Below, in pieces: positions 12,887 to 29,189 of a DNA stretch of 52,222 bases. The notes under the pieces are model-generated. The model had not been told where the DNA came from and made no database searches. It was given only the letters and a program-made list of their open reading frames with translations. The number at the start of each line of letters is the position of its first letter. Position 1 is the first letter of the stretch. The translations under genes were made by a program, and so were the position numbers. This stretch comes from Rhizobacter sp. Root1221 (lineage in GTDB: Bacteria; Pseudomonadota; Gammaproteobacteria; Burkholderiales; Burkholderiaceae_C), in assembly GCF_001425785.1 (NCBI RefSeq), contig NZ_LMDI01000004.1, positions 74,842-127,063 on the forward strand, given 5' to 3'.

Positions 12887-13597
12887 TCACATCCGGGGTG
12901 GACTGGGCGGGGGTTGCATCGCGGCGGACTCGAGGCGGCGCACGCCCGGAGCGCCGCTGAGCATCGCGTGGAGCATCGCGGCGGCCACGGCTTCGGCCTC
13001 GATGGGCCGCACGCGGCGCGGCACGAAACGCATCACCGGGCGCAGCAGGCGTTCGCCCCACTGTTCCACCGGGCGCACCGTTTGCCCGAGGGCCGCACGG
13101 TCGCCGATCAGCAGCGACGGGCGGGCGATCACCACGGTGGAAAAACCGAGCGACGTGACGGCGTCTTCCATCTCGCCCTTCACGCGGTTGTAGAACACCT
13201 TCGAGCGGGCATTGGCGCCCAGCGCCGACACCACGGCCAGCCGCATGGCGCCGGCCTCGCGTGCCGCGCGGGCCGTGGCCAGCACCGCATCGAAATCCAC
13301 CTGGCGGAACGCGGTTCGGGAGCCAGCCGTCTTGATGGTGGTGCCGAGCGCGATGTACACGTCGTCCACCGATGGCAGCACCGGCAGCGCGTTGAACGCC
13401 ACCGGGTGGTGGCGCAGCTTGTCATGGTGCACCGGGTGCGAGGGCAACCGGCGCACGAGCGCATGGACCATCCGGTAGGACGATTGCGCGAGCAGCATGG
13501 GCAGCAGCTGCGAGCCGATGAGGCCCGTGCTGCCCGCCACCCACGCCGTGCGGGCACGGCGCGGGTCGGGAACGGGGGCGGTGAAGGTGACCATCAC
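12887..13597 (-). CDS. NAD(P)-binding Rossmann-fold protein (atypical SDR / HTATIP2-like)
   Basis: A 236-residue protein. The dinucleotide-binding motif GSTGLIGS lies near residues 22-29. DVYIALGTTIKTAGS and the segment VVSALGANARSKVFYNRVKGEME, with Tyr and Lys in YNRVK, match the extended/atypical SDR group related to HTATIP2 (read as two parts). The FSTVVIARPSLLIG strand follows. It is probably a redox or sugar-nucleotide-related enzyme whose substrate cannot be told. ATG at 13597 or 13594 both fit. It lies downstream of the GH6 gene by 37 nt on the same strand and may be read through from it. Confidence 0.8.
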   Translation of the reverse strand: MMVTFTAPVPDPRRARTAWVAGSTGLIGSQLLPMLLAQSSYRMVHALVRRLPSHPVHHDKLRHHPVAFNALPVLPSVDDVYIALGTTIKTAGSRTAFRQVDFDAVLATARAAREAGAMRLAVVSALGANARSKVFYNRVKGEMEDAVTSLGFSTVVIARPSLLIGDRAALGQTVRPVEQWGERLLRPVMRFVPRRVRPIEAEAVAAAMLHAMLSGAPGVRRLESAAMQPPPSPPRM

Positions 13598-13634
13598 CGG
13601 TCACTGTACTGCGGGCCGCCCCCGGCCACCCCGA

Positions 13635-15398
13635 TCACTTCAGCGCGGGGTAGGCATTGCGCAGCAGCATCATGAACTGGTCATGGAACCACTGCCCGGC
13701 GTGCGGTGCGCCGGTGAGGGCGTCGCCGGTCTTGGTGCCGCACATCTCGTCGTAACGCTTGCCTTCGGCGTTCGGCGTGTTGGCCGACGTGTCGCTCGTG
13801 CCGTCGGAGTCGCCCGGCGGTTTCACGAACACGAACGCGTCGAGGTGCGGGCGCGAGTTGTCCGGGTTGGCGCGCGGACGCTCGCCGATGCCGGTGTCCT
13901 TCACGTTGCACCAGTTGCCACGGTGTGCGCGGCGGTCGATGCGCATGTCGTCCACGTCGGCCGCGGCGGCCGTGGGGCGCTTCGCGCCGCCCCAGCCGTT
14001 GCGCGAGGTGTCGACGATGAACGACAGGCTCTGCGGGAAGCCGGCGGCAACGAACTCCTTGCGCAGCGTGTCGACGTAGCTGAGTTCATCGACGACGCGG
14101 TTCCACTGGTAGAACTGCGTGGTGCGCCCGGAGTCGACGATGGTGTCGTCGAAGCTGTTGAAGAAAGGTTCGTCGAGCGGCGTGTAGTTCGCGGTGTTGC
14201 TGGCGAACCCGCGCACGATGTCGAGGCGGCCGCTGGTGGTCGCGCCCTGGATCAGCGTCTTGAACCCGGCGATGGCCTTGGCCCGGTTGTCGTTCCAGCC
14301 GAGCCAGCCCGAGTGGGCGATGTCGAGGTACATCGCGACGTTCTTGACACCGGACAGCTTGTTCAGCGTGTACTGGATGCCTTCCACGTAGACCTTCTTC
14401 GCATCGACGGCATCGCAGGCGGGCTTGCCGTTGCCCACGTTCGTCAGCATGTTCGGGTACGAGTCGGGCTCGATCACTGCCACGACGCGCAGGCCTGCGT
14501 ACGCCGGCCGCGCGACGATCTCGGCGATGCGGTCGATGTACTGCGTCTTGTAGAGCGACATGCCGTTCTGGGCCGAACTCAGTTCCCCGTTCGACGCGAA
14601 CGCCGCGCAATCGCGGTCAGGCAGGTCGTACACCACGAGCGTGATGGCGAGCGGCTTGAGCGCGCCCGTGCCGCTGATCGCGCGTTGCTGCACCAGGGCG
14701 GCATCGAGGTGGTCCACGAGGCCCATCGCGCCGCCGGTCGCGCGCGCGCCGTCGATCGCGGCGATGCGGTCGAGCCACACGGCCGTCGGGAACTTACCGG
14801 CCGCCTGCAGCAGTGCGGCGTCGGTCGAACCGGCGGTCACACGCGCCTGCGACACCTTGATCTTCGCCGCGTAGTCCGGATCCAGGTACATCGTGGCGTC
14901 GGCGTACGGGTTGCCCGTCGAGATCAGCGGGACGCTGGGTGAGGGGCTCGGGGACGGCGAGGGCGTCGGGGACGGGGTGGGTGCAGGCGTCGGAGCTGGA
15001 GCCGGCGTGGGAGCAGGAGCCGGCGTGGGAGCAGGTGACGGTGTCGGCGTTGGGGCCGGTGTCGGAGCTGGCGCAGGCGCAGGCGCAGGCGAAGGCGAAG
15101 GCGAAGGCGAAGGCGAAGGCGAAGGCGAAGGCGAACCCGTCGACGGGGCGGGGGCCGGGGTCGGTGTCGGAGAGGGCGCCGGGCTGCCGGTCGACGGTGC
15201 CGGCGCGGGCGACGGGGTGCCTCCGGTCGAGGGTGCCGGAGCCGGCGTGGGCGTCGGCGCCGGCGTGTTCGCGCTGGGCGACGGGGCTGGCGAGCTGGCG
15301 TTGGCGACGTTGTCGTCACCACCGCCGCAGGCGGACAGCACGAGCGAGAACAGCAGGCTGACGGCCAGCGGGGCGCGGGGTGAGGTCTTGTTTTTCAT
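13635..15398 (-). CDS. Lipoprotein glycoside hydrolase family 6 cellulase
   Basis: A 587-residue protein. Its lipoprotein signal ends LFSLVLSAC, with Gly at +2 predicting an outer-membrane or surface lipoprotein. A Pro/Ser/Ala/Thr linker of about 130 residues follows (about 33-160). The GH6 domain then carries [12 protein letters not shown] with the proton-donor-type Asp263, and [10 protein letters not shown] with Asp312, the two signature Asp sites; WGG and [11 protein letters not shown] occur near the end. GH6 enzymes are inverting endo- or exo-beta-1,4-glucanases. No carbohydrate-binding module is seen. A Shine-Dalgarno AGGGAG precedes ATG. It is the last of nine tightly spaced genes, 22 nt after the GH5 gene. 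Confidence 0.9.
15088..15135. repeat. Hexanucleotide microsatellite (ggcgaa)x8 in the GH6 linker
   Basis: Eight perfect ggcgaa units, preceded by three ggcgca units (15070-15087). On the minus strand they encode alternating Pro-Ser and Pro-Ala in the linker between the lipoprotein anchor and the GH6 domain. Slippage would change linker length in frame. Confidence 0.95.
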
Positions 15399-15420
15399 GG
15401 AACTCCCTGGGTTGACGTGT

Positions 15421-17523
15421 TTACTTGAGGTGCGTGGACAGCACGCTCATCTGCGGCTTGTCGGCGCCATTGGCGGGTTCGATCGAGTACATGTAGGAGC
15501 CCCACCACGGGCCGGCGGCCCACCAGGTCCAGCCGGCCCACACATCAGAGTTCGCCTCGACGTGGGCCAGCATCTGGTCGATGGCCTGGTTGCAGTTGGT
15601 GTTGGACGCAGCGCCGAATTCGCCGAGCAGCGCGCGGTAGCCGTTCGTGCGCAGCCAGCCGGTGAAGGCCACCAGGCGTTGTGCCGCCGCGGCCGGCGCG
15701 ACGCAATCGGCGCTCGTGCCGGAGGAGTTGCTATCCGCGTACTGGTGCACCTCGAACACCATGTTCTTGCCCGGGTCGACGATGTTCTTCATCACGGTGC
15801 CGTTCGCCGTGCCGTACCCGTTTTCGAGCCAGCTGTGCGCGCCGGTCCACGCGTTGCCGGGCACGGTGACCACGTTGGTGGCGCCGCTGTTGCGGATCGC
15901 GGCGATGCCGGCGTTGGCCGCGGAGAGCCACTGTTCGGTGGGCATGTCGTGCGGTTCGTTCATGAGACCGAACACCACGAGCGGGTTGCCCTTGAACTGG
16001 GTGGCCAGGCGCGTCCAGAAGTCCGCGAACGCCGAGTTCGGCACGGCGGCGGAACCAATCAGCTGGTCCCGGTAGCGGGCGTAGTTGTGCGGGTCGATCA
16101 CCACGGTCACGCCGGTGGCGGTCACCTGCTGAACGAAATCGCGCAGGCGGCCGAGCTCGGCGGCATCGAAGGGCTGGTTCAGCGCCGGTTGCAGCCGCTC
16201 CCAGAGGAACGGCAGGCGCACGGTGTTCATGCCCTTGCCCTTGAAGTACGCCACGCTGCCCGCGGACGGGTACACGTAGTTGGTGTTGTGCACACCGGGC
16301 AGCGTCTGGGGCGCGAACTCGGCACCGGCCAGGCTCACCCCCCGCCACTTCAGGCCGGTGACTGGCTGCTGGGTCACGCCCTCACCGCAGCCGATGCGTG
16401 TGGCACCGAGCGCGAGGTCGTCGAGCCACAGCTCGGCCTTGGGTCCGCCGCCCTGGTACAGCTGCCAGCCCATCTTGATGCGGTTGAACGCAGGGAAGAC
16501 GAAGTCGACCGCGTTGCCGCCGTGCACCTTGGTCGACACGCTCAACTCGGGCTTCGCGACCCCGTCGATCCACACGTCGACGCTGTTGTCGGCGGCCTTC
16601 ATCTGCCATTCCATGCAGGTCCAACGGCCGCCGGCCGTGGGGGTGGTCTCCTGCCACGAAGTCCAGTCGCCGGTGGGGCCGCCGTCCGCGCCCACGCCCC
16701 AGAGCGGGGTGCCGTTGGCCTTGCCGGGGATGTACTGTCCGCCGATCGGGCGCACCGCCGTGCCGTTGCCAGTGCCCGTGGCCTCGACGAGCGTGAAGTG
16801 GGCGTAGTCGGGCTTGGTGGGGAACGCATCGACCCACACCCACATGCGGCCGAAGAAACTGTTGCCGACGGGCGCAAACGTGTTGGGGATGAGGAACCCG
16901 ACGCCGCCCGCTTCGACGGACAGGTGCAGCGCGTTCTTGCCGCGGGCATGCGTTGCGTCCACCGTCACGGTGGCCTGCCGGTTCTCGATCGTCCAGCGGG
17001 TGCTCGAGGCCGTGCCCTGGGCGGCGCTTTCGAAGTCCTCGCAGAACAGGTAGGTGCCAGCGCAGGCGCCGGCCGCCGGTGCGGGGGCAGGCGAAGGCGA
17101 AGGTGTGGGAGCCGGAGCCGGAGCCGGCGAAGGGGTGGGTGCCGGTGCCGGTGCAGGCGACGGGGTGGGCACGGGCGCAGGCGTCGGTGCCGGAGCAGGG
17201 GAGGGCGTGGGAGCCGGCGACGGGGTAGGTGCTGGCGCAGGGACCGGGGCCGGCGCAGGTGCGGGCCCGGGGGTCGGCGCAGGGGACGGTGCAGGAGACG
17301 GCGTGGGGGCCGGCGCCGGCGTCGGCGAGGGGGCGGGCGACGGCACGGGCGACGGCACCGGCACCGGTGCGGGCGAGCTGGCGTTGGGCGATGCCGTGGC
17401 GGCCACGGAATCGTCGCCGCCGCCGCAGGCGGCCAGCAGGACGGAGGTGCCGAGGGCGGCGCAGACGGCGCGCAGGCGGCGCCGATCGGAGCCGGACGTC
17501 GAGTGGGCAGACGGATGGTTCAT
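15421..17523 (-). CDS. Lipoprotein GH5 cellulase with N-terminal jelly-roll module
   Basis: About 700 residues. The signal ends [10 protein letters not shown], a lipobox followed by GGGDD, closely like that of the GH6 protein. A long Pro/Ala/Ser linker follows, then a beta-rich module of ~210 residues starting YLFCEDFES and including [21 protein letters not shown]. It resembles Cip1/polysaccharide-lyase-like jelly rolls, tentatively for carbohydrate binding. The GH5 barrel has the acid/base Glu523 (LMNEPHDM) and nucleophile Glu635 (LLGEFGA). The N-terminus is uncertain: ATG 17523 is chosen, but 17544 is in frame and neither has a clear Shine-Dalgarno. It starts 25 nt after dsbD. Confidence 0.88.
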
Positions 17524-17548
17524 GGTGGGGTCCAAGGTAGGCATAGAG

Positions 17549-19387
17549 TCAGAGTGCAGCCGCGTTCAGGCTGTCGAGGAACTGGCGGCTCGGTTGGTAG
17601 CCGATCACGCGGGCGGCCGCGTTCTCGCGGCCTTGGCCGTCGAAGAACACGATGCCGGGCGGGCCGAACAGGTCGAAGCGTTTCAGCAGGGCCTTGTCGT
17701 GCGCGGTGTTCGCGGTGACGTCGGCCTTGAGCAGCACGAAGTCCTGGAGCTTCTTGCGCACGTCGCCATCGGAGAACGTGAACTTCTCGTACTCCTTGCA
17801 CGACACGCACCAGTCCGCGTAGAAATCGAGCATCACGGGTTTCCCGGCCGCGGCGATGGCGGCGTCCAGCTCGGCCACCGACCGCACCGTGGTGAACGCC
17901 GGCTTGCCGGACTCCGCCGACGTGGCGGACCCGCCGCGCGCGGCCAGGTGGGCCAGCGGTTGCAGCGTGTCGCGTCCGCCCGAGAGGGCGCCCACGAACT
18001 GCGCCGCACCCACGAGCGCGAGCAGCACGCCCACACCCTTGAAGAAGCTGCGCCAGCCACCGCCGGCTTCCGGCAGGCGTTCGAACGCACCCAGGTACAC
18101 GGCGCTCATCAGCAGCAGGGCACCGGCCAGGGCCATCAGGCCCCACGTCGGCAGCACCGGCGACACGAGCCACAACGCCACTGCCAGCAGCAGCACGCCG
18201 AACGCGTGCTTGACCTTTTCCATCCAGGCACCTGCGCGCGGCAGCAGCGAGCCGGCAGACAGGCCCACCAGCAGCAGCGGGGCGCTCATGCCACACGCGA
18301 GCGAAAAGAGCGCCACACCGCCGATCAACACGTCGTGCGTGCGGCTGATGTACACGAGGGCGCCGGCGAGCGGTGCCGCGACACACGGCCCCACGATCAG
18401 TGCCGACATCCCGCCCATCACGAACACCCCGGCGAACGTGCCGCCCTTCAGGCGCCCGGAGGCCGCGCTGACCTTGCTCTGCACGGCACCCGGCATCTGC
18501 AGCTCGTAGAACCCGAACATCGACAGCGACAGCCCGGCGAGCAGCAGCGCGAACGCACCGAGCACCCACGGGTTCTGCAACGCGGCCGCGAGGCCTTCGC
18601 CCAGCAAGCCCGCCACCACGCCGAACGCGGTGTACACAAGCGCCATGCCGAGGCAGTAGCTGGCCGCGAGGCCCAGGCCTCGGGCGCGCGAGACCGGACC
18701 GGCCTGGCCCACGATGATCGACGAGAGGATGGGCACCATCGGCAGCACGCACGGCGTGAACGACAGCAGCAGGCCGGCCGCCGCGAACACGCCGGCGATC
18801 ACCAGCAGGCTGCCGGATTGCAAGGCGTTCTGGATGCGGCTCGACTCGCCCGATGCGGGCGCGGCGGCTGCGGCGGGGGCCGCTGCCTTGGCGGGGGCGG
18901 CCACGTCGACGGGCTCGGCCAGGCGGCGCACGCCGGCCACGGCGCCGTTGGCCACGTCCACCTGGAACGAGCGCACCTCGGGCGGGTAGCAGAGCCCCTG
19001 GTCGGCACAGCCCTGGCTCGTCACGTTCAGCACGAACGGGGCGGCGGCCTGGGTGACGCCCACGGGCACCGTGACGGTGTCGCGGTAGGTCTCGACGTCC
19101 TTCTGGAAGGTTTCGTCGAACTTGATCTTGCCGGCGGGCAGGTCGGCCTTGAGCACACCGGTGCCCACCGCGGCCTCGAACGCGAAGCGCTCGCGGTACA
19201 TCATGTAGCCCGGCGCGATGTCGAAACGCAGCGAGACGGTTTGGTCGTCTTGCCGCGAGGCGGTGACCGCGAAGGCTTTTTCAGGGTCGAGGAAGTCGTC
19301 GGCGGCGGTGGCGTGGCCCGCGAAGGCGAACCACGACAGGCATGCTGCGGCGAGCCCCCGTGCAAACGGGGAACAGAAACGAGTCAT
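17549..19387 (-). CDS. dsbD: Thiol:disulfide interchange protein DsbD
   Basis: A 612-residue protein with the full DsbD layout. It has a signal peptide (to about 28), a periplasmic N-terminal domain (nDsbD) with cysteines in [12 protein letters not shown], and a membrane domain of about eight helices with the cysteines of FTPCVLPM and VGPCVAAP. The C-terminal thioredoxin domain has WCVSCK. It moves electrons from cytoplasmic thioredoxin across the inner membrane to periplasmic partners such as TlpA/CcmG- or DsbC-like proteins. SD GGAG precedes the ATG. It lies 13 nt after the DUF3570 gene, with a TlpA partner three genes upstream in the same operon. Confidence 0.95.
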
Positions 19388-19400
19388 CGGAGGCTCCGGG

Positions 19401-20585
19401 TCAGAACTTGCGGCTCACGCCCACTTGGACGGAGTCCGCACTGAAGGTGTCGAGGTTGGGGGAACCCTTGCCGAAGCTGCGCCAGTCGCCGCGCTGCTCG
19501 TAGCGTTCGTACTTGATGTCGGTGGTCCAGTCCGCGTACCGCACCTCGGCCTTCAGGCCCGCGGTGATGGCCCCGAAGGCCGACATGCGCTGGTCGACCG
19601 TCATGTACGTCTGCGGCACGATGGGGCGCGGGTAGATCGCCGCGTCCATCACCGGGTCGTAGTAGAACGACGCAGAACTCTGCGTGTGGTAGCGCAGCGA
19701 AGGGGTGAGGGCGAGCCACCGGGTCACCGGCTGCACCCACGCACCTTCGAACGTGTGCGCGCTGATGTCGAACGAATCGCGGTAGTAGCGGTAGCTCGTG
19801 CGCAGCGTGGCGTCCCACCCGGCGAAGTGGTGGTTCCAGCGGGCGAGCGCGGCGCCCTGCTTGCGGCGTTCCGGGCGCTTGTCGTTGCGCTTGTACGGGT
19901 CGGTGAAATAACCCTCGCCGTCGGTGTACGTGATGTTGGCCTGCACGAGGTCGTTCGCGGTGAGCGCGTGGGTCACCCCGGCGATCACCTCGTTGGAGCG
20001 CTTGGCCTCGTTGACCACCACCTTGTTGACCGGGTTGATGACGTCTTCCGAGTGGCCCACACCAAGCGTGAACGTGGTGTTGTTGTCGGGCGTGGCGATA
20101 CGGCCCTCGATCGACGCCGCGGTGGAGCGGTAGTCGTGTTCGGACGAATGGCTCACGCCCACGCTGACACCACCGCGGGAGAAGTGCCGCGAAATCCGCA
20201 CGTCACCTGCCTTGCGGTTGTCGCTCATGCCGGGTGCCGACGTGGCGCCGGACACGTCGGTGTAGTACTTCGGCGTGGCGCCCGACACTTCGTCGAGCAC
20301 GGCCGAGGCCTCCACCGTCCAGTCGGTGCCGATCGGTGCCTGCACGAAGACCGATGGCGACTTCGCCGTGATGCGCTTGAACTTCGTCGGTTCGGTGCCG
20401 TCGTAGTTCGGGTACTTCACCTCGACCTTCTGCTGGTCCTGGTAACGCAGGTAGCGCAGCGCGATCACGCCGTGTTCCGGCGCGGTCTCGGCCTGCGCGG
20501 CCGGGGCCGCGAGCGAGCCGTGCAGCGCGAGGGCCGCCATCACCACCTTGCCGAACGGGCGTTGGGTCTTGTCAGTTGCAGCCAC
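19401..20585 (-). CDS. DUF3570 outer-membrane beta-barrel protein
   Basis: 394 residues counted from the GTG at 20585. A signal peptide (MAALALHGSLAAPAAQA) is followed by amphipathic strands rich in aromatic residues and ending in Phe (VQVGVSRKF), as in outer-membrane barrels. ALRYLRYQDQQ, YYTDVSGAT, SEHDY and WNHHF occur as in DUF3570 proteins. The frame runs back to 20675, but GTG 20585 is chosen for a GGAGG five bases upstream and because the signal peptide then starts normally. It overlaps the end of the DUF4266 gene, whose C-terminal codons contain this Shine-Dalgarno, so translation is coupled. Function unknown. Confidence 0.85.
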   Translation of the reverse strand: MAATDKTQRPFGKVVMAALALHGSLAAPAAQAETAPEHGVIALRYLRYQDQQKVEVKYPNYDGTEPTKFKRITAKSPSVFVQAPIGTDWTVEASAVLDEVSGATPKYYTDVSGATSAPGMSDNRKAGDVRISRHFSRGGVSVGVSHSSEHDYRSTAASIEGRIATPDNNTTFTLGVGHSEDVINPVNKVVVNEAKRSNEVIAGVTHALTANDLVQANITYTDGEGYFTDPYKRNDKRPERRKQGAALARWNHHFAGWDATLRTSYRYYRDSFDISAHTFEGAWVQPVTRWLALTPSLRYHTQSSASFYYDPVMDAAIYPRPIVPQTYMTVDQRMSAFGAITAGLKAEVRYADWTTDIKYERYEQRGDWRSFGKGSPNLDTFSADSVQVGVSRKF

Positions 20586-20811
20586 AGCCACCTCCGCCCA
20601 CGCCGTAACCGCCGCTTGCGGCTTCCTTGCTCGTGTAGATGTGCTGCTGGTAGCGCTGTTCCAGCGGGTCGCCACCCATCGTCATCTCAGGCTTGGCGAG
20701 GTTGCCTTTTTCCCAGGCCTGGGGAGGTGTCAGCACACCACAGCCGGACAATCCGGCGGCCACGAGGGCCAGGGGCAGGAGGTGTTTCAAGGGTCTGCTC
20801 CGAAAGGTCAC
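20572..20811 (-). CDS. DUF4266 small lipoprotein with Cys-containing tail
   Basis: A 79-residue protein. The lipoprotein signal ends AAGLSGC (Cys24). The mature ~56 residues include TPPQAWEKGNLAKPEM, typical of DUF4266, and end in a glycine tail with two cysteines (GYGVGGGGCGCN). The paired C-terminal Cys could bind metal or heme or form a disulfide; this is inference. Start is GTG at 20811, overlapping the TlpA stop (GTGA). DUF4266 and DUF3570 genes commonly occur side by side, as here. Function unknown. Confidence 0.85.
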   Translation of the reverse strand: MTFRSRPLKHLLPLALVAAGLSGCGVLTPPQAWEKGNLAKPEMTMGGDPLEQRYQQHIYTSKEAASGGYGVGGGGCGCN

Positions 20812-21311
20812 TTGATGCTGGCGAGGGCGGCGACGATGGCGTCTTCCTGCGCACGGCGCTCGTCCGGACGGAAGCCGGCGTGCACGCGGATCACCTGGCC
20901 GTCCGGGCCCACGAGCACCGAGCTCGGCATGCCCTTGATCTGGTAACGCTTCGGGCTGTCGCCCTTCGCGTCGAACGCCACCGTGAAGTTCGCCGGGATC
21001 TCGGTGAGGAAACGGTCAGCGTCCTCGCGTTTGGCGTCCACGTTGACCGCGACGATCTGCAGGCCCTTCGAGCCGTACTTGGCCTGCATCTCGTTCATCC
21101 ACGGGAACGACTGCTTGCACGGACCGCACCACGAGGCCCAAAAGTCGACGTAGACGACCTTGCCCTTCAGCGAGGCGAGGCTGACCGGTGCCTGGGTTCC
21201 GGCCAGGTCGATCGCGGGGGCGGGTTGCCCCGGTTCGAGGGCCATCGCGGCGCCACCGCCCAGCGTGGTGATGGCGGCGATGACGATGGTGCGGAGGAAT
21301 CGGGTGTTCAT
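20808..21311 (-). CDS. TlpA-family thioredoxin-like protein
   Basis: A 167-residue exported thioredoxin. The signal peptide ends near AAMA (residue 24). The thioredoxin fold has the redox motif WCGPCK (about 62-67) in VYVDFWASWCGPCKQSFPW and the cis-Pro site in KGMPSSVLVG. Proteins of this type reduce disulfides in the periplasm, for instance before heme attachment, and take electrons from DsbD, which is in the same operon. SD AGGAC precedes ATG. It is 17 nt after the cytochrome/ASH gene and overlaps the DUF4266 start by 4 nt. Confidence 0.92.
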   Translation of the reverse strand: MNTRFLRTIVIAAITTLGGGAAMALEPGQPAPAIDLAGTQAPVSLASLKGKVVYVDFWASWCGPCKQSFPWMNEMQAKYGSKGLQIVAVNVDAKREDADRFLTEIPANFTVAFDAKGDSPKRYQIKGMPSSVLVGPDGQVIRVHAGFRPDERRAQEDAIVAALASIK

Positions 21312-21328
21312 GGAAAAGGTCCTGGAAG

Positions 21329-24300
21329 TCAGAAGGAGTTGGGGGCGCGGCGGGCGCGGTAGCCCGCGAGCAGCAGCAGCGCGAGGCCGGCGAGGGCGAG
21401 CAAGTCGATGGCACCACCGCCCGAGTCGTCGCCGCCGGCGTTGTTGGCGCCCGCATTGGCCACCATGGCACGGCCGGCCAGCGGCACGCTGCGGGTTTCG
21501 CCGCCTGCGCCGGTGACGGTCAGCACGCCGGTGCTGTCGCCGGTGGGCGTCGTAGCGACGAACGCGATCGAGACCGAGCACGAGGCATTCGGCGCCAGCG
21601 CCTGCGGGACGGTGCATGCGCCGGACGCGCTGTTGACCACCTGGAACGGGCCGCTCGTGTTGATGTCCGTGAGCATCAGCGTCGTGGTGCCGGTGTTCGT
21701 GAACTGCGCCGTGGCGGGCGCGGAGGCATGACCCATCACCCCCGTGAAGCCGAGCGAGGCCATGTCGGAGATCAGGTTCGTGCTGCCGGTGGGTGTGTCC
21801 GTCGCGGTGCCCGTGCCGGACAGCGAGATGGCGGCCGGCGCCGAGGCGTTCGACGCGATCTTCAGCGTGGCGGCGTGCGTGCCGGCGGCGGCGGGAGCGA
21901 ACCCGATGCTGACGACACAGCTCGCGCCCTGGGCCAGCGAGGCCGAGGTGCGGCAGCTGGTCTCGGACGTGGTCGTGAAGGCCGCCTTGCCGGTGCCATC
22001 GGTGCCGATGCTGGTGAACGTCACGGCGCCAGGCCCCTGGTTCGTCAGCACGAAGGACTTGCCGGCCGACGTGCGGCCCACGGCCGTGTTGTCGAACTGC
22101 GCCGTGGTGGGCGTGCCGGCCTGCCACGCGAGCACCGGACCGCTGGACACCGACAACCCGCTCAGCCCGATGGCGACCATCTGGCCCGAGCCCGTGGTCA
22201 GCATCAGCGTGCCGCTGGCGCTGCCGCCGCTGGTCGGGACGAACGTCACCGAGATCGTGCAGTTGGCGTTCACCGCGAGCGTGGCTGCGCAGGTGTTGGC
22301 CGAGACCTTGAAGGGCCCCGTCACCTCGGTTTTCGTCAGCGTCACGGCCGCCACGTTGCCGTTGGCGATCGAGACCTGCATCGGCGCGGACGTCTGGCCC
22401 GGGGCCACGGCCGTGCCGGTGAAGTCGAGCTGTGCCTTGTCGGCGGTCAGCAGGCCCGTTCCGGCGGAGGCCGCGATGCCGGAACCCGACAGCGCGACGT
22501 CACCTGGCGACGTGCCGTTCGACTCGACGCGCAGCGTGGCGGACTTGGCGCCGCTTGACGTCGGCGAGAAGGCCAGCGCCACCGTGCAGGATGCACCCGC
22601 CGCGATGGTCGTGCCGGCCTTGCAGGTCGACGTGCCCGACACCACGAACGCCGCGGCGTCCGTGCCGGCCGTCGTCACCGCGCTCAGCGTGACACTGCCC
22701 GGACCCTGGTTGGTCAGCGTGCGCGACTGCACGGCGCTGGTGGCCCCGACGGTGGTCGACGAGAACGGCCACGAGGTGGCGTTCGACGGCCAGGCGAGCT
22801 TCGGCGTGGCGGCCGTTGCCTGGCCCTTCAACGCGACGTCGACCGTCTGGGTGCCGACCGTGATGGTCAGCGTGCCAGTCGATGCGCCCGCCGCGGTGGG
22901 CGAGTAGACGACGGACAGCGTGCACGATGCGCCGGCGGCGAGCGTGGACGCCCCGGTGGCGCAAGCGCCGCTCACGCCGGACTGCAGCGCGAAGGGACCC
23001 GTCAGCTTGATGGACGAGATGGCTGCCGAGGCGGCGCTGCCGTTGCTCACCACCAGGTTCAACGGGGCCGACGTGCTGCCGGTGACCGCGCCGATCGAGC
23101 TGAAGTCGAGCGTCGACGTGCTGACCGTCACCGTGCCGGTGCCCGCGCTGGGGCTCGCGCCCGTGCCGGACAACACCACGTCACCCGGCGGCGTGCCGGT
23201 GGAGCCCACTTGCAGGTTGGCCACCTTCGAGCCGGTGCTGCCGGGCACGAAGTTGATGGACACCGTGCAGGTGGCGTTCACGGCAAGCGCGAGGCCCACC
23301 TTGCAGGTCGAACCCGAGGCGATCGCGAACGACGAGGCGGCCGCGCCAGCGGTGCCCAGCGACGTCAGCGTCACCGCACCCGGACCCTTGTTCACGAGCG
23401 TGAGGCCTTGCGACGCGCTGCTCACACCCACCACGGTGGATGCGAACGTCAGCGACGTGGTGGCCGGCTGCCAGGCGAGCACCGGCAGCGACGTGGAGGT
23501 GCCCTGGCCGGTGACCACGATGGAGTTGGGCGAGCTGATCGCGTTGGTCGTCAGCACGACCGATTCCGCCGAGTTGTCGGTGGTGGGCTTGTAGACGATC
23601 GTGATCGTGCACGACGCCGCCACTGCGAGGCTGGCCGGGCAATCATGGCTCGATACGTACTCGGCCGACGTGCTCACGATGCTGCCCACCGTCATCGGTG
23701 CCGTGCCGCTGTTCGTCAGACGAACCACGCGACCCATCGATTGGGTGTTGAACGTGACACTGCCAAACCCGACGGCGGCTTGCGACAGGGTCACTTCCGG
23801 TGCCGGCGTGTTGACGCTGGTGGCGCGCAGCGCGACGGTGGCCTCGCCGGTCTTGGCGTTCGATGCGATGGCCAGCGTGGCCGTCTTCACACCCAGCGTG
23901 ACCGGCTTGATCTCCACCGTCACGGTGCAGGTGCCCTGGGCGGGGACCGACAGCCCGTTGGTGCAGGTGCCGCCGAGCACGAACGAGCCTGCATCGGCGC
24001 CGCTCGTGCCGATGCTGCCGAGGACCAGCGCCGAACCGCCGCTGTTGGTCAGCGTCAGCGTCTTCTTGCTGCTGCTGAGCACGGCCACCACCTGGGCGCC
24101 GAGGTCGATCGACGTGGCGTCGAGCGCGATGCCGGGCTCGGGCGTGGCAGTGCCGGTGCCGGAGAAGCTCACCGTGCTCGGGCTGCCGGTCGCGTTGTGG
24201 GCGATCGTCAACGTGCCGCTGCGGGTGCCCATGGCGCCGGGGGTGAACACCACGTCGGCCACGCAGCTGCTGCCGCCGGCAACCGTGCCGCCGGCCTGGC

Positions 24301-25153
24301 AGGTGGAGCTCGCGATGAGCCGGTAGTCGCTCGATTGGCTGCCACCCAGCGTGAGGGCCGACAGCACCAGCGGGCCCGTGCCCGTGTTGCTGATGGTGAC
24401 CCGCTTCGCGGTTGAGTCGGTGGCGACCACGCTCGAGAAAGTCAGCGCGGTGGGAGACACCGTGATGGCCGGGGACGTGTTCACGGCTGCGCCGCTCAAC
24501 GACACCGTGGACTTGCCGCCCGTGCCGTTGTGCGCGATGGTCAGCGTGCTGCTGCGGTCACCGACCGCCGTGGGCTTGAAGACCACGTTGACGGTGCAGC
24601 TCGCGCCCGCGGCGACGCTGCCGCCGGCGCTGCACGAGCCGCCGGTCACGGCGAAGTCGCTGCCGGCAGTCACGCCGATCGACGAAATGGCCAGCGCACC
24701 GGTGGCACCGGCGGCGTTACCCACCGTGACGGTCTGCGCGGCGCTCGTCGTGGCCAGGTTCTGGCTCGCGAACGTCAGCGACGTCGCGGACACCGTGGCC
24801 GACGGGGTGGCGACCACCGCAATGTACGTCGGGGTAGCCTGGTACTCGTCGGCGATGTACTTCGCCAGGTGGTTGAACTCGGTGTCGGTGATGAACCCGT
24901 GCAACGGGGCCATCTTGGGAATCGACTGCGCGGCACCCTTGATGGCGTTCGCGTTGGCGCCACGCAGGATCACGGGGTCTTCCCGTGGCGTGAGGTGGCA
25001 CGACAGGCAGGTCCGGACGCCGGTGACGAAGGTCTTCTGGTAGAGCGCCTTGCCTTCGGTGGCACTTTGCGCCAGCGCAACGCCGGACGCGAACGTGGCA
25101 CCGATGGCCAGCGCCGCGAGGCGGGCGAGTGAGCGTGGAATGATATTCGTCAT
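21329..25153 (-). CDS. Giant exported cytochrome c with ten ASH-type repeats and a GlyGly-CTERM-like tail
   Basis: 1274 residues. A signal peptide (to about 28) precedes a c-type cytochrome with one heme site CLSCH (about residues 48-52) and a candidate Met ligand in SIPKMAPLHG. From about residue 115 come ten immunoglobulin-like repeats of ~100 residues, each with a late motif like ASCTVNVVFKP then STLTIAHN. These are the choice-of-anchor D / ASPM-SPD2-Hydin type. The tail GGDDSGGGAIDLLALAGL...RARR is a Gly cluster, membrane helix and basic end, like substrates of rhombosortase. ATG 25153 overlaps the DUF1552 stop (ATGA). It is probably a surface-displayed rod carrying one heme. Confidence 0.85.
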   Translation of the reverse strand: MTNIIPRSLARLAALAIGATFASGVALAQSATEGKALYQKTFVTGVRTCLSCHLTPREDPVILRGANANAIKGAAQSIPKMAPLHGFITDTEFNHLAKYIADEYQATPTYIAVVATPSATVSATSLTFASQNLATTSAAQTVTVGNAAGATGALAISSIGVTAGSDFAVTGGSCSAGGSVAAGASCTVNVVFKPTAVGDRSSTLTIAHNGTGGKSTVSLSGAAVNTSPAITVSPTALTFSSVVATDSTAKRVTISNTGTGPLVLSALTLGGSQSSDYRLIASSTCQAGGTVAGGSSCVADVVFTPGAMGTRSGTLTIAHNATGSPSTVSFSGTGTATPEPGIALDATSIDLGAQVVAVLSSSKKTLTLTNSGGSALVLGSIGTSGADAGSFVLGGTCTNGLSVPAQGTCTVTVEIKPVTLGVKTATLAIASNAKTGEATVALRATSVNTPAPEVTLSQAAVGFGSVTFNTQSMGRVVRLTNSGTAPMTVGSIVSTSAEYVSSHDCPASLAVAASCTITIVYKPTTDNSAESVVLTTNAISSPNSIVVTGQGTSTSLPVLAWQPATTSLTFASTVVGVSSASQGLTLVNKGPGAVTLTSLGTAGAAASSFAIASGSTCKVGLALAVNATCTVSINFVPGSTGSKVANLQVGSTGTPPGDVVLSGTGASPSAGTGTVTVSTSTLDFSSIGAVTGSTSAPLNLVVSNGSAASAAISSIKLTGPFALQSGVSGACATGASTLAAGASCTLSVVYSPTAAGASTGTLTITVGTQTVDVALKGQATAATPKLAWPSNATSWPFSSTTVGATSAVQSRTLTNQGPGSVTLSAVTTAGTDAAAFVVSGTSTCKAGTTIAAGASCTVALAFSPTSSGAKSATLRVESNGTSPGDVALSGSGIAASAGTGLLTADKAQLDFTGTAVAPGQTSAPMQVSIANGNVAAVTLTKTEVTGPFKVSANTCAATLAVNANCTISVTFVPTSGGSASGTLMLTTGSGQMVAIGLSGLSVSSGPVLAWQAGTPTTAQFDNTAVGRTSAGKSFVLTNQGPGAVTFTSIGTDGTGKAAFTTTSETSCRTSASLAQGASCVVSIGFAPAAAGTHAATLKIASNASAPAAISLSGTGTATDTPTGSTNLISDMASLGFTGVMGHASAPATAQFTNTGTTTLMLTDINTSGPFQVVNSASGACTVPQALAPNASCSVSIAFVATTPTGDSTGVLTVTGAGGETRSVPLAGRAMVANAGANNAGGDDSGGGAIDLLALAGLALLLLAGYRARRAPNSF

Positions 25154-26637
25154 GCTTTGAGCCACGGCAGGTTCTGGTTGGCGGCAGCCCACATCGCGTC
25201 GGTGTGGTCGTTGTTGCCGCGCACGCTCGGATAGCCGAACGCACCGTTGTTGGTGGAGTAGTCGCTGGGCTGGAGTCCCATCGAACGCAGCACCATGCCC
25301 ATGAACTGGTTGTAGATCAGGCCGCCTCGCCAGGGAATGGGTTCGTTCTTCGACCACGAGAACGCGTTCATGTCGCGGTAGTCGAGCGACTGGCCGGTCT
25401 TGAAGAACCCGCCGGCGTTGCCGAACGTGACGATCGGGATGCAGCGGTTGTGGTGGTGGCCCGGGCTGCCGCCGGAGCCGAGTTCATGGCCACTGGCCAC
25501 GAAGCCCTTGTCGAGCAGCGTGTTGCCGTCGGCGGTCTTCACGGCGTCCATCTTGCGGGCGAGGTCGAGCTGCGCACCTTCGAACTGGCGCTGCACGGCG
25601 GCGCTGTAGCCCGCGCGCTTGCTGGGGTCGGCTTCGATGTTGTGGGCGTAGTTGTTGTGCCACGCGTGTTCAGGTTCCGGTCCGAACGTGTAGCTCGTGG
25701 GGCCGCAGACGTACACGCGGCTGATGCCAGCGGCGAAGGCCGCGACGACGATGTCGTTCCAGAGCTTCTCGCACTGCACCTGGTTGTCCGGCAACCCGTA
25801 GAAGCCGGCTGCGGCCTCGACGGCCGACGTGTCGGTGGTGGGGCGGGGGAAGCTGCTGTTGACCGTCTGCTGCACCTTGCCCTGCACCTCCGACAGCATC
25901 GTGAGGTACTCGTCGAGGCGCGTGCGGCAATCGGCGGAGCAGCGCGGGTCGGCCTTCACGAGCGCGGCGTGTTCCTTCACGCTGTCGACCAGCACGGTCT
26001 GTGCCGGCGCGTTGGGCGTGGTCGGGGTGGTCGAGGTCTTGAACAGGCGATCGAAGAGCTTGACGTTGCTTTCGGCGGTCTCCTGCGCCTGCACGACGCC
26101 CGAGGACGTCTGTGACAGCGACACGGGGTTGCGCACGATCACCGGCTGCAGCGGGCTGCTCGGGTAGAACGTCTTGGAGGCGCCCAGCACCTGGTCGATG
26201 GTCGGGTTGGCCGCGTCACCGCCGAGCGGGCCGCCACGGTTGTGGCCCACGCCGGTCGCGAAGTCGAGACCGTTGATGACGTTCATCAGGCTCAGCATGC
26301 GGGGCGTCAGGTTGGAACTCTGCGCCTGCAGGATCTCGCTGAGCACAACCTTGCCGCCCGTCACCGCGGTGGGCAGCGGGGTGTTGCGCACGTCGATGCC
26401 GGCGAAGTTCTGGGTCTGGCCCGGCGTCAGGCCGAGCAGCGAGCCGTAGAACTGGTCCTGCATCACGCCGTGCCACGTGGTCATGTGCGCGAAGTAGCGC
26501 TCGGACGAGGCCGCGGCCAGCGTCTGGGCTTCCGCGTTGCGCGGCAGCAGCGACGGGAGCAGCGGGAGGGCCAGCGCGGCGCCACCGGCGCCCACGAGGA
26601 ATTGGCGGCGCGAGACGGGATCGAATTTGGGTTTCAT
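25150..26637 (-). CDS. DUF1552 protein, Tat-exported
   Basis: 495 residues. The start MKPKFDPVSRRQFLVGAGG followed by a hydrophobic stretch is a twin-arginine signal, predicting export of a folded, possibly cofactor-bearing protein. Typical DUF1552 features are HMTTWHGVMQ, MLSLMNVINGLDF, HNRGGPLGGD (His-Asn) and GSGGSPGHHHNRCIPIV with a His cluster near residue 400. The family is distantly like DUF1501/sulfatase-type proteins and has no known activity. It usually pairs with DUF1592 proteins, as here. It overlaps that gene by 4 nt (ATGA) and the cytochrome/ASH gene by 4 nt. Confidence 0.9.
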   Translation of the reverse strand: MKPKFDPVSRRQFLVGAGGAALALPLLPSLLPRNAEAQTLAAASSERYFAHMTTWHGVMQDQFYGSLLGLTPGQTQNFAGIDVRNTPLPTAVTGGKVVLSEILQAQSSNLTPRMLSLMNVINGLDFATGVGHNRGGPLGGDAANPTIDQVLGASKTFYPSSPLQPVIVRNPVSLSQTSSGVVQAQETAESNVKLFDRLFKTSTTPTTPNAPAQTVLVDSVKEHAALVKADPRCSADCRTRLDEYLTMLSEVQGKVQQTVNSSFPRPTTDTSAVEAAAGFYGLPDNQVQCEKLWNDIVVAAFAAGISRVYVCGPTSYTFGPEPEHAWHNNYAHNIEADPSKRAGYSAAVQRQFEGAQLDLARKMDAVKTADGNTLLDKGFVASGHELGSGGSPGHHHNRCIPIVTFGNAGGFFKTGQSLDYRDMNAFSWSKNEPIPWRGGLIYNQFMGMVLRSMGLQPSDYSTNNGAFGYPSVRGNNDHTDAMWAAANQNLPWLKA

Positions 26638-28445
26638 TGCGGCCTCTGGATCGACTTGAACTCGTCGCGGGTGACGATGGATGCAAACAGGCTCCGCAGG
26701 TTGGCGCCGTTGGCGGCCTGCAGGCGCACGGTGTCGATCACCGACGCATCGTTGGCGGTGTCGGCGCGGCCGAATGCGTAGCGGAAGTAATTGCGGGCGA
26801 AGCAGCCTTCGAAGGCGCCGCTGTCGAGCACGTACTGCTGCGCCTGCGCTGCGGTCGAGATCGAGCGTTCGGTCATGCCGTCGAGCAGGGCCACGACGGC
26901 GGTGTCGATCGGCTTCTCGCCGCGCGATGCGCCGGCGTCGTCACGCACGACTTCGCTGGCGCGCACGCGGCCGAGCGAGTCGAAGCGTTCGAACACGAAG
27001 CCCCACGGGTTCAGCGAGGTCTTGTGGCAGGCCACGCAGGCGGTGTTCGGCATCTCGGTGATGCGCTCGGTGCGTTCGCGCGTGGTGAGCACGGGCGTCA
27101 GGTCGGCCGCGGCGTTCGTCTGGTTCATCGCGGGCGGGGGCAGCGACTGGCAGGTCAACGCGCTCAGCACCTTGGCGCCGCGCTGGATCGGCAGTGTCGT
27201 GTCGGATGAACCGTTGGCGAGCACCCCGACGCGGGTCAGCAGGCCCACGCGATCGGCTTCGGTGAAGGTGGGCGGCGTGCCGGTTCCGTTCCAGACGGTG
27301 GTCTTGTACAACGTGGCGATGTCGGCCGTCTTCGCGAACGAGTGGCGGTCGGTCAGCACCTGTTGCAGCGAGCCGTTCCGGGAGGCGACGTACGACACCA
27401 TGTCGAGCACCTCGTCGATGGCCGCATCGCGGGTGGTGGCGAGCGGCTTGTACGAGCCGGCGAAGGCGTCGAATTTCGCGTTTCCGACCTTGCCGTTCAT
27501 GGGAACGAGGTCATCGAGTCGCAACCATTGGCGGAAGAAGCTGCGCAGCGCGGCGTCGGCGCGGGCGTCGCCCATCAGGCGGGTGACCTGCTGCTGGTAC
27601 ACCGAGGGCTGCAGCAGCGTGCCGTTGTCGGCGGCGGCGGCCAGCGTGGCGTCAGGCAGGGTGTCCCACAGGTGAAGCGACAGGCGGGTGGCCAGTTCGT
27701 GGGCCGACAGCGGCACGCAGGCGCTGCTGGTGTCGGTGGTGGTGGCGCCGCGCTCGAGCACGAAGTACGACTGCGGCGACGCGATCATGGTGGCCAGCAC
27801 CTTGGTGACCGCGGCGCGGTCGGTGGCCCCGTTGGCGACCTTCTTGTAGACCGCCACTTCGGCGTCGGTCAGCGGCTGGCGGAACAGCGTGCGGCCGGCA
27901 CGGCGGATGAAGTTGGTGAGGCAGGCGTCGCCGGTGCAGTTGCCGACGATCGTCGCGGCGCGCTGGTCGGTGCTGGCCAGGTCGGCGGCGAGCGCTTGGG
28001 CCACGCTGTGGATGCCGGTCACCTGGCGGGTCGTGACGGTGGGGTCGAGTCGGTAGTAACCCTGGTGCCGGGCGGTCTCGGGGTTGATCGACGCGTCCAG
28101 CGGGAACTGGGCGGTGTCGAGCACGAGGGTGCGGATGCGGGCGGGCAGGGCGCTGTCGGTGATCAGCGAGGCGGACCAGTCGGTCAGCACGTTGAGGTAC
28201 TGGGTCCGTGTCAGCCGGCGCGGCAGCACGGCGCTGAAGCAGCCCGGTGCCGACGTCGTGGCAGCAGCCGTGGCGCGTACCGGGGCCGATTGGGCGTGCG
28301 GGTCGGTCGGGATGCCGACGGTCGGCGCGGCGTCGGGCGCGCGCGTGTTGGGGGTGGAAGTGCTTTCCTGGCTGTCGTTGCCATTGCACGCGTGCAAGGC
28401 AGCGGCCAGCATCAGCCATCCACAGAGCTTGAGCGGGTGTCGCAT
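26634..28445 (-). CDS. DUF1592/DUF1588-type lipoprotein with CxxCH motif
   Basis: 603 residues; signal ends MLAAALHAC, a lipobox. Blocks in order recall the Planctomycetes-type set: RRLTRTQYLNVLTDW (DUF1587-like), AGRTLFRQPLTDAEVAVY (DUF1595-like), LSAHELATRLSLHLWDTLPD (DUF1592), then CVACHKTSLNPWGFVFERFD (DUF1588, with CVACH at about residue 475), and FARNYFRYAFGR (DUF1585). The CxxCH can bind heme c. This set is best known from Planctomycetes and myxobacteria and is usually next to DUF1552. First gene of the nine-gene cluster. Confidence 0.9.
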   Translation of the reverse strand: MRHPLKLCGWLMLAAALHACNGNDSQESTSTPNTRAPDAAPTVGIPTDPHAQSAPVRATAAATTSAPGCFSAVLPRRLTRTQYLNVLTDWSASLITDSALPARIRTLVLDTAQFPLDASINPETARHQGYYRLDPTVTTRQVTGIHSVAQALAADLASTDQRAATIVGNCTGDACLTNFIRRAGRTLFRQPLTDAEVAVYKKVANGATDRAAVTKVLATMIASPQSYFVLERGATTTDTSSACVPLSAHELATRLSLHLWDTLPDATLAAAADNGTLLQPSVYQQQVTRLMGDARADAALRSFFRQWLRLDDLVPMNGKVGNAKFDAFAGSYKPLATTRDAAIDEVLDMVSYVASRNGSLQQVLTDRHSFAKTADIATLYKTTVWNGTGTPPTFTEADRVGLLTRVGVLANGSSDTTLPIQRGAKVLSALTCQSLPPPAMNQTNAAADLTPVLTTRERTERITEMPNTACVACHKTSLNPWGFVFERFDSLGRVRASEVVRDDAGASRGEKPIDTAVVALLDGMTERSISTAAQAQQYVLDSGAFEGCFARNYFRYAFGRADTANDASVIDTVRLQAANGANLRSLFASIVTRDEFKSIQRPQ

Positions 28446-29125
28446 CGTCGATCTTCCGGGCCGTTGAGTTGGGGCGGATGCTCGGTGACACGCACCTTCG
28501 TGCTGTAACGGAACGCGTCGACCCGGACGCGTGGGGGCATGGGTGAGAAAACGCGGAAAACCCTGCCCTGCAGAGGGAATGCCGTGACAACGTTTTCAAG
28601 AATCAATCGGGAAACAATGTGTCGACGCGATACAAACCCTGACACTTGTACGGAATTCCATTCGAATGGCGAGGGTTGGATAGTTCAACCCCCCTGGAAC
28701 AGGGGGGTGGATGTGAATTGTTAGCGTTTTCTTGCCAGCCTGAAACATCGTTCAGAAATCCGGTGGTATGCACTAATTCTGTTGAAATGAGGTACTTTTA
28801 TGCCGTTCTGAACACGCAATCCAAAGTGCTTCGCTGCATTTTGGAAGCGGTTTCACAAGCGGTGTGTTCACGTGTGCCGCTGGCGGACAGGCCCGTGTTC
28901 ATGCGGGTTCTGAAGCCATCACGCGATTGGTTGTATGACAACTTCGGTGTGCTGGAATTGGCGCAACCAAGTGGTTTTCAGAGGGCGACCGGAGCGCACT
29001 GACCTCAAGCGTCGGGGTGGTGACAGGTCGGTTGTCGGATGACTCGATGACGCCGAAGTTGGGTTCGGGTGCCGCCGAATGTGACGCCTGCAAGTTGGCG
29101 CGGGCACCCTGGCCGGCGGCCGGCC
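28446..29125. other. Gene-poor, AT-richer stretch with palindromes upstream of the DUF1592 operon
   Basis: 680 bp without a supported gene, visibly poorer in G+C than its surroundings, mainly at 28620-28960. Toward the operon: inverted repeat ACGCGTC/GACGCGT (28513-28532); perfect palindrome CCATTCGAATGG (28658-28669); GGGTTG/CAACCC (28673-28691); and ACCCCCCTG/CAGGGGGGT (28688-28708). The last two share bases and exclude each other. A weak minus-strand promoter-like pair TTGAAC-N17-TCGAAT overlaps them. A plus-strand frame of 72 codons (28787-29002) has no Shine-Dalgarno and I do not call it. Confidence 0.6.
28658..28708 (-). promoter_or_regulatory. Cluster of palindrome and two competing hairpins
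   Basis: Three symmetric elements lie in 51 bp, about 215-265 bp upstream of the DUF1592 start: a 12-bp perfect palindrome (28658-28669), a 6-bp stem with 7-nt loop (28673-28691) and a 9-bp stem with GAA loop (28688-28708). Sharing of bases 28688-28691 makes the two stems alternatives, as in attenuators, but no T-run follows. The palindrome may be an operator. Confidence 0.4.
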
Positions 29126-29153
29126 AAAAAAAAAAGACGGCACCGCGGCCGTC
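29126..29153 (-). terminator. Intrinsic terminator of rhlE
   Basis: On the minus strand the GACGGC/GCCGTC stem (29136-29153) with a GC-rich loop is followed by ten T residues (29126-29135). It ends the rhlE transcript about 36 nt after the stop codon. Confidence 0.9.
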
Positions 29154-29189
29154 TCTTTTCAGGAAAGGCAGCCTCCCGGCTGCCTGGGT

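Follow-up and report, generated by a model that had tools for sequence, protein, structure and literature searches.

Nine minus-strand genes at 13635-28445 of a 52,222-nucleotide stretch of DNA from Rhizobacter sp. Root1221 (GCF_001425785.1, contig NZ_LMDI01000004.1, positions 74,842 to 127,063, forward strand; hereafter the window) appear to form a composite operon, in which a conserved flavin/thiol core is joined by clade-specific additions: a DUF1592-DUF1552 pair, and Cip1-like, GH5 and GH6 functions. Our main reading, to which we assign a probability of about 0.5, is that this operon delivers electrons outward to surface cytochromes beside tethered cellulases. Its composition, and the identity of the module as the core of a DsbD-type DUF3570 flavinylation cluster, we hold with high confidence.

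All nine genes lie where the initial annotation had placed them, and its gene overlaps, protein families, two CxxCH heme proteins and two cellulases were borne out by coordinates, spacings, motif search and Pfam. Matches over the curated cut-off comprised PSD5/PSD4/PSCyt3/PSD2 (DUF1595/1592/1588/1585), DUF1552, ASH repeats, Redoxin/AhpC-TSA (TlpA), DUF4266, DUF3570, DsbD, GH5 and GH6. In operon order the intergenic spacings are -4, -4, +17, -4, -14, +13, +25 and +22 nt; the -14 spacing takes DUF3570 to start at a GTG (20585), and the +25 spacing takes GH5 to start at the downstream ATG (17523), becoming +4 with the ATG at 17544. Export signals were judged by eye in the translations, with lipobox and Tat motifs located by motif search. 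Consensus scans of 13000-29300, little informative at this high G+C, returned no sigma-70-like promoter where 0.6 would be expected, and three terminator-like sites where 9.5 would be; of the three, one is on the operon strand, within the DUF1592 gene. Comparison of 28446-29189, the region upstream of the operon, with that of six relatives gave a 40-nt stretch in common with one (G120) and nothing longer with the others. The nine genes are likely a single operon.

The core of the operon, all on the minus strand like the features that follow, comprises five genes. The cyt/ASH protein (21329..25153; 1274 aa) combines choice-of-anchor-D/ASH repeats with one heme site, CLSCH (24995-25009), and a C-terminal GG-hydrophobic-RR tail; the Cytochrome_CBB3 profile stayed under its cut-off on this protein. 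The TlpA-like thioredoxin (20808..21311) has a WCGPC motif; its Pfam matches are to Redoxin, AhpC-TSA and further models of the thioredoxin group, not to PF13899, which is instead matched by a domain of DsbD. The small lipoprotein DUF4266 (20572..20811) ends in CGCN, a CxC motif present in 80/80 related loci (the best 80 of 284 relatives). DsbD (17549..19387; PF02683), with N-terminal, transmembrane and thioredoxin domains, is the next gene after DUF3570, across a gap of 13 nt.

DUF3570 itself (19401..20585) is a predicted 16-strand outer-membrane beta-barrel, as judged by Pfam, AF2 and Foldseek. Its AF2 model had a mean pLDDT of 81.8, and all 50 listed of the 860 Foldseek matches were outer-membrane barrels; sequence search gave no significant PDB relative. 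Two SGAT flavinylation motifs, at residues 101-104 (20274..20285) and 112-115 (20241..20252), lie in the model where the strand 3-4 loop begins and inside it, on the long-loop side of the barrel, which is predicted to be the outer side; residues 105-111 in this flavin loop had pLDDT <50. Two SGA[T/S] motifs are present in 6/6 aligned operon copies of DUF3570, and a motif pair at most 25 aa apart occurs in 66/80 of the best loci from the 284 relatives.

The core recurs in Burkholderiales. Around DUF3570 in loci that lack DUF1592, TlpA and DUF4266 are each found in 52/52 and ApbE and DsbD in 46/52; the cyt/ASH gene is likewise present in 46 of the 52 evaluable loci without DUF1592/1552, and cyt/ASH and TlpA share a single reading frame in 13 of the 65 loci that have both. 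The giant cytochrome/ASH protein is part of the flavin/thiol module. Within the clade described below, TlpA was not found in two Piscinibacter loci, nor DsbD in three of nine evaluable loci. The operon of the window contains no ApbE: the ApbE genes of this genome are on contigs C20 and C37 rather than on the operon contig, C4, and ApbE there adjoins the remnant of a second cluster. ApbE is inside the locus in four of nine evaluable clade loci (Methylibium, both Piscinibacter loci and AAP51).

Two further exported proteins form the DUF1592-DUF1552 pair. The DUF1592-type lipoprotein (26634..28445; PSD5-PSD4-PSCyt3-PSD2, lipobox assigned by eye) has one heme site, CVACH (27024-27038), and its gene is the sole PSCyt3 gene found in the genome. 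DUF1552 (HXXSHH; 25150..26637; Pfam, NCBIfam TAT) has a Tat-type signal, SRRQFL; its residues C233, C237 and HHNR 395-398 are invariant in both alignments, and an AF2 model from nine sequences was unusable (mean pLDDT 43.9). Sequence searches gave no significant PDB relative of DUF1592, DUF1552 or the cytochrome domain.

Both cellulases are lipoproteins with Pro-rich linkers. The GH5 protein (15421..17523, alternative start 17544) contains NEP and GEFG, which we take to be its catalytic motifs, and a Cip1-like domain (16381..17070) that phmmer aligned to CIP1 (3zyp) with E 2.8e-9 over residues 11-229 of 230. PF21340 was not reported on this domain and scored 223 bits on the Methylibium protein. 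The GH6 cellobiohydrolase-like protein (13635..15398) exceeds the curated Pfam cut-off; of 11 genus genomes, the same five carry both GH6 and DUF1552, and a search of 120 family genomes found three GH6 genes, all within this type of operon.

We compared the locus across relatives, using crude, scripted gene calls and scoring up to three candidates per genome; 80 loci, the best of 284 relatives, were retained, of which 54 made up set A4 once near-copies and L125, a broken match, were dropped. DUF1592-DUF1552 was accompanied by at least one of Cip1-like, GH5 or GH6 in 9/9 evaluable loci against 0/52 of those lacking DUF1592/1552, a tabulation that leaves out 21 of 82 loci as too short and takes cellulases as absent where tblastn queries from the window found none, so that unrelated CAZymes could be missed. 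The loci with both parts belong to a clade of Sphaerotilaceae (Rhizobacter, Methylibium, Piscinibacter and AAP51), the AAP51 locus carrying a Cip1-like gene without GH5 or GH6. Across ten genomes DUF1592, DUF1552, cyt/ASH, DUF4266, DUF3570 and cellulase-related genes have been kept together and contiguous, although their internal order takes about five forms; this conservation of the gene set through rearrangements exceeds chance. The cellulase-linked part of the operon, as judged from these distributions, appears to be the DUF1592-DUF1552 pair and not the module.

In a tree built by a quick method with SH-aLRT only (79 of the 80 loci, L125 dropped, plus the window, L047, L056 and L061), the DUF1592/cellulase label needs three changes over all rows and two when L077, L087, L088, L134, L144 and L150 are omitted. 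In our reading of this unrooted tree, the association would correspond to about one evolutionary gain, meaning that the 9/9 are not nine independent cases.

In the route that we propose, cytosolic thioredoxin would supply electrons to DsbD, DsbD would reduce TlpA, and TlpA would pass the electrons to the CxC of lipoprotein DUF4266, which in turn would reduce an FMN that ApbE would attach to an outer loop of the DUF3570 barrel; from this FMN the electrons would reach the heme on the cyt/ASH protein at the cell surface. In the Sphaerotilaceae clade, the cyt/ASH protein would hand them to the DUF1592 cytochrome, at which the Tat-exported DUF1552 may act on plant-wall material in a redox-dependent step, next to the tethered cellulases. 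We lean towards outward electron flow, and put forward the use of these electrons on polysaccharide or its partners more tentatively. The shared operon suggests that redox chemistry may be linked to plant-fibre breakdown. An earlier proposal of a surface redox system assisting polysaccharide attack stands in part: the conserved neighbourhood, with exported redox proteins next to lipoprotein cellulases, supports it, while its tie to cellulose is weakened for the module, which is general and flavin/thiol based, only DUF1592/1552 tracking the cellulases.

That generality underlies the strongest alternative, a general envelope redox module (for iron reduction, oxidised-protein repair or oxidant defence) whose cellulases share its promoter, both being used on plant surfaces. 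DUF3570, DUF4266 and TlpA are found without detectable Cip1, GH5 or GH6 in 52/52 evaluable DUF1592-minus loci, so the module is not specific for cellulose; since DUF3570 is also present in 10/11 genus genomes, the acceptor may be a general one, such as iron or oxidants, and Meheust et al. propose, in passages of PMC8238504, a possible iron role from 25 clusters with VIT1. The gene set nevertheless stays contiguous despite rearrangement in ten genomes, and DUF1592, one of the additions, is a cytochrome in its own right; we consider this alternative rather unlikely. Electrons might also flow inward, with DUF1592/DUF1552 oxidising cellodextrins or further products of the wall and releasing the electrons to the flavin and heme carriers, in keeping with the suggestion in parts of PMC5615132 that PSCyt genes of freshwater Verrucomicrobia act on carbohydrates. 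However, DsbD generally moves electrons outward to thioredoxin-like proteins, as passages of PMC8238504 describe, and Pfam reported no dehydrogenase family on the nine proteins, making inward flow improbable.

Still less probable is that the cytochromes feed AA10 lytic polysaccharide monooxygenases (LPMOs), as proposed for Cbp2D of Cellvibrio, which has an annotated DUF1587 besides its cytochrome domains, and whose CjX183 domain activates LPMOs (passages of PMC8981238): an AA10 gene does occur in one operon genome, Methylibium rhizosphaerae (G066), but on a different contig from the operon. The AA10 search (PF03067) covered G066 and five Rhizobacter operon genomes, leaving out L074, L076, L078 and L126; an LPMO partner for Rhizobacter was rejected, AA10 being absent from the genome of the window and the other four of that genus.

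In the heme-thiol supply raised by the initial annotation, TlpA and DsbD would hold the cysteines of both CxxCH sites in the reduced state for heme attachment. Proteins of the TlpA and DsbD types do serve cytochrome c maturation elsewhere, and the operon encodes two CxxCH proteins, but we reject this supply role as the least probable, because the genes around DUF3570 in DUF1592-minus loci are the published flavin/thiol set, both [S/T]GA[S/T] motifs are present, and heme attachment would presumably not require DUF3570, DUF4266 or ApbE.

The closest known systems to our preferred composite operon are the clusters of Meheust et al. 2021 (PMC8238504), whose text describes ApbE flavinylating a DUF3570 and the existence of DsbD/DUF3570/DUF4266 clusters. 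Like them, the operon has DsbD, a thioredoxin-like protein, DUF4266 with its C-terminal CxC and DUF3570 with two [S/T]GA[S/T] motifs; unlike them, it lacks the ApbE that they typically include, although their definition in the passages does not demand it, has a Redoxin/AhpC-TSA-type TlpA in place of the typical PF13899 thioredoxin, and adds cyt/ASH, DUF1592, DUF1552 and cellulases. The main text of that paper does not contain 'polysaccharide', 'barrel' or 'JDVT', and its 'cellul' passages, as shown, are not on cellulose; the open-access literature searched contained nothing else on DUF3570/DUF4266. The operon sets this published flavinylation system beside cellulose as a likely substrate in Rhizobacter strains, which makes growth on cellulose a direct test for DUF3570, DUF4266, DUF1592 and DUF1552.

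A second comparison concerns MrtJ and JDVT-CTERM, described in part of PMC11980579 as a sorting pair. Outside the clade, the cyt/ASH protein carries JDVT-CTERM (NF033191) in 4/4 tested relatives (40.9 to 52.9 bits, cut-off 27), and tblastn found a MrtJ-like gene in 41 of 52 loci; the MrtJ model, run on two of these genes, passed one (101.6 bits) and placed the other just under its cut-off of 75 (72.8 bits). In contrast, JDVT-CTERM was not reported on the cyt/ASH tail of the window and scored 7.9 bits, against 27, on the clade protein of L049, and tblastn found MrtJ in 0/9 evaluable clade loci, the window's operon included. The window's tail is GlyGly-CTERM-like, yet under that model's cut-off (10.1 versus 15.5 bits). 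Rhombosortase exceeded its cut-off in 11/11 genus genomes and in 0/14 control genomes, 14/14 of which had weaker matches; its independence of operon presence within the genus means that it does not explain the lost JDVT signal. With these observations, the known range of the JDVT-CTERM/MrtJ pair extends to a redox locus of several genes.

For the added genes, passages of PMC5615132 describe PSCyt3 (DUF1588) genes of freshwater Verrucomicrobia that adjoin an unknown gene family, which we infer to be DUF1552. The operon likewise has DUF1588/1592/1585 domains, CxxCH and an adjoining DUF1552, resembling the PSD/PSCyt domains, CxxCH and second gene alongside there, but it is betaproteobacterial and includes a flavin/thiol module and cellulases. 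A neighbourhood-based role can be offered for the DUF1592/DUF1552 pair. The Cip1-like domain resembles Cip1 of Trichoderma reesei (3zyp; part of PMC8287770), with which the N-terminal region of the GH5 protein aligns over 219 residues, but here lies within a bacterial lipoprotein cellulase. Cbp2D/Cbp2E of Cellvibrio japonicus are, like the proteins here, secreted redox proteins linked to cellulose use, cbp2D/E knock-outs growing poorly on filter paper (passages of PMC8981238), and a study of a lignocellulose community (PMC6004670, in part) lists a CBM2 protein of Cellvibrio that has DUF1592. Unlike Cbp2D/Cbp2E, the nine proteins here matched no CBM, YceI-like or DUF1587 family (Pfam, E 0.001), and the genome has no AA10 LPMO. 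Most speculatively, and as a long shot, DUF1552 could be a new LPMO-independent redox enzyme acting on crystalline cellulose or on its lignin/oxidised-sugar partners, fed by DUF1592 as a surface cytochrome that draws cytosolic electrons via thiol, flavin and heme carriers; if true, the DUF1552 system would be a bacterial counterpart of cellobiose dehydrogenase, wired to the cell's own metabolism.

The initial annotation had read nine minus-strand genes at 13635-28445 of the window as one operon, and a gene and Pfam check found all nine at those positions with the families it had named (DUF1592, DUF1552, cyt/ASH, TlpA, DUF4266, DUF3570, DsbD, GH5 and GH6), spaced in that order by -4, -4, +17, -4, -14, +13, +25 and +22 nt; the genome is 6.87 Mb, the window being part of contig C4. 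An NAD(P)-binding-domain gene (12887-13597, minus strand) starts 37 nt past the GH6 stop and may be the tenth gene of the transcript. The GH5 protein carries a previously unreported Cip1-like domain (match to 3zyp, E 2.8e-9); the Pfam Cip1 model did not report it in the window protein, and gave 223 bits on a Methylibium protein; the first Cip1-like domain there shares 67% identity with the one in the window.

Among six stretches compared, four had all nine genes; the window's order recurs in one of these, G120. The other three place DsbD after the cellulases and add a Cip1-like gene and an extra gene, a pectate lyase in the one examined by Pfam; in the fifth, from Methylibium, ApbE lies within the stretch and no GH5 catalytic domain is present. 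Two further arrangements occur in two Piscinibacter loci and in strain AAP51. Of the 11 genus genomes, five have a window-like DUF1552, and GH6 is confined to those five. Across 120 family genomes DUF1552 was found in four, three of which have GH6, always inside the operon stretch; the fourth, G005, which supplied the sixth stretch compared, has DUF1592 and two DUF1552 genes, with none of the nine operon genes beyond these families in 20 kb. This DUF1592-DUF1552-DUF1552 cluster (locus L052, 5233-10889), away from the other seven genes, is followed by genes that we take to resemble flagellin. At order level (399 genomes, one search scoring at most three candidates per genome), DUF1552 and GH6 were each found in Root1221 alone.

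A DUF3570-alignment search gave 80 named loci, the best 80 of 284 relatives, and 61 loci were evaluable: the window, L047 and 59 of those 80. The 52 of these 61 that are missing DUF1592/1552 hold TlpA (52), DUF4266 (52), cyt/ASH (46), ApbE (46), DsbD (46) and an MrtJ-like gene (41). JDVT-CTERM scored above cut-off in all four non-clade cyt/ASH proteins tested (L081, L096, L115, L141), and L049's clade protein scored far below that threshold; the MrtJ model scored one of two small membrane proteins above cut-off and the other slightly short. The 46 of 52 loci and four of four proteins place the giant cytochrome in the core module and identify it, in relatives, as a JDVT-CTERM protein. Burkholderiales loci headed by MrtJ-like and JDVT-CTERM cyt/ASH genes, with TlpA, DUF4266, DUF3570, ApbE and DsbD, include L081 (7443-14009) and L092 (6784-13835); PMC11980579 describes JDVT-CTERM/MrtJ as a two-gene neighbourhood. 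A tie between cyt/ASH and TlpA is supported because one open frame joins them in 13 of the 65 loci having both, within the set based on the best 80 of 284 (L094, L105, L106, L107, L110, L112, L118, L119, L131, L140, L142, L145, L146); both examples inspected, L094 and L140, have a JDVT-CTERM-like segment mid-protein. The N-terminal heme motif of cyt/ASH varies across relatives between CX2CH (42 of 69 proteins) and CX4CH (21), with none found in six, five of them truncated by a contig edge. DUF3570 alone is no special mark of the operon: at least one occurs in 10 of 11 genus genomes, some being distant relatives adjoining a TlpA-like gene.

Among the best 80 of 284, DUF4266 ends in CGCN in all 80 loci, and DUF3570 has two SGA[S/T] motifs at most 25 residues apart in 66, one in 13 and none in one, a broken match. 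The DUF3570 model has 16 strands (mean pLDDT 81.8; residues 105-111 below 50), and the 50 listed of 860 Foldseek matches are outer-membrane barrels (query TM-scores 0.30 to 0.48). The long-loop side of such barrels usually faces outward; because the motif-side loops total 111 residues and the opposite turns 25, the flavinylation motifs are predicted to face outward. PMC8238504 describes flavinylation of a DUF3570 by ApbE, on both motifs, and gives ApbE, DUF4266, DUF3570 and a thioredoxin-like protein as the typical content of DsbD clusters. The Root1221 genome has one DUF3570, the window's, and two ApbE genes, both off C4. One, on contig C37, overlaps by 4 nt a preceding DUF4266 without the CxC end (the two genes at L054, 7228-8387). 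Against a second TlpA-DUF4266-DUF3570-ApbE cluster in G120, its ApbE stretch matches at 83% over 899 nt and a portion of DUF4266 at 79% over 92 nt, and the ApbE proteins are 85% identical. We infer that the C37 pair is a remnant of a second flavinylation cluster, complete in G120, whose ApbE would serve the window DUF3570.

Of 82 loci (a set built on the best 80 of 284), ten carry DUF1592 and DUF1552, and every one of the ten also has one or more of Cip1-like, GH5 and GH6; Cip1-like stands alone in AAP51 and in L074, a locus cut off. The remaining 72 gave no match to any of the three. When the count is restricted to evaluable loci, 9 of 9 with the pair have at least one such gene, against 0 of 52 lacking it (Fisher p 6e-11). 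This p value overstates independence, since the ten rows fall in one supported set of 12 on the tree, suggesting about one gain; the set's other members are L077, on a contig too short for scoring, and the second G120 copy. MrtJ was found in none of the nine evaluable DUF1592/1552-bearing loci, and the window cyt/ASH tail is GlyGly-CTERM-like, under the model cut-off.

The presence, motifs, predicted fold and conservation of the operon's parts are established. In the proposed mechanism, electrons would flow outward from DsbD to the cell surface and be put to use there beside tethered cellulases. A strong rival is that the module has a general redox role and shares only its regulation with the cellulases. 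It is improbable that an AA10 LPMO serves as partner, because no AA10 gene was found in the five Rhizobacter operon genomes searched and the single one among 13 genomes, a 758-aa open frame (L152) in Methylibium rhizosphaerae, lies on a different contig from the operon. Compared with Cellvibrio Cbp2D, as presented in PMC8981238, the window system is without a CBM and without an LPMO, and Cbp2D is its closest functional precedent.
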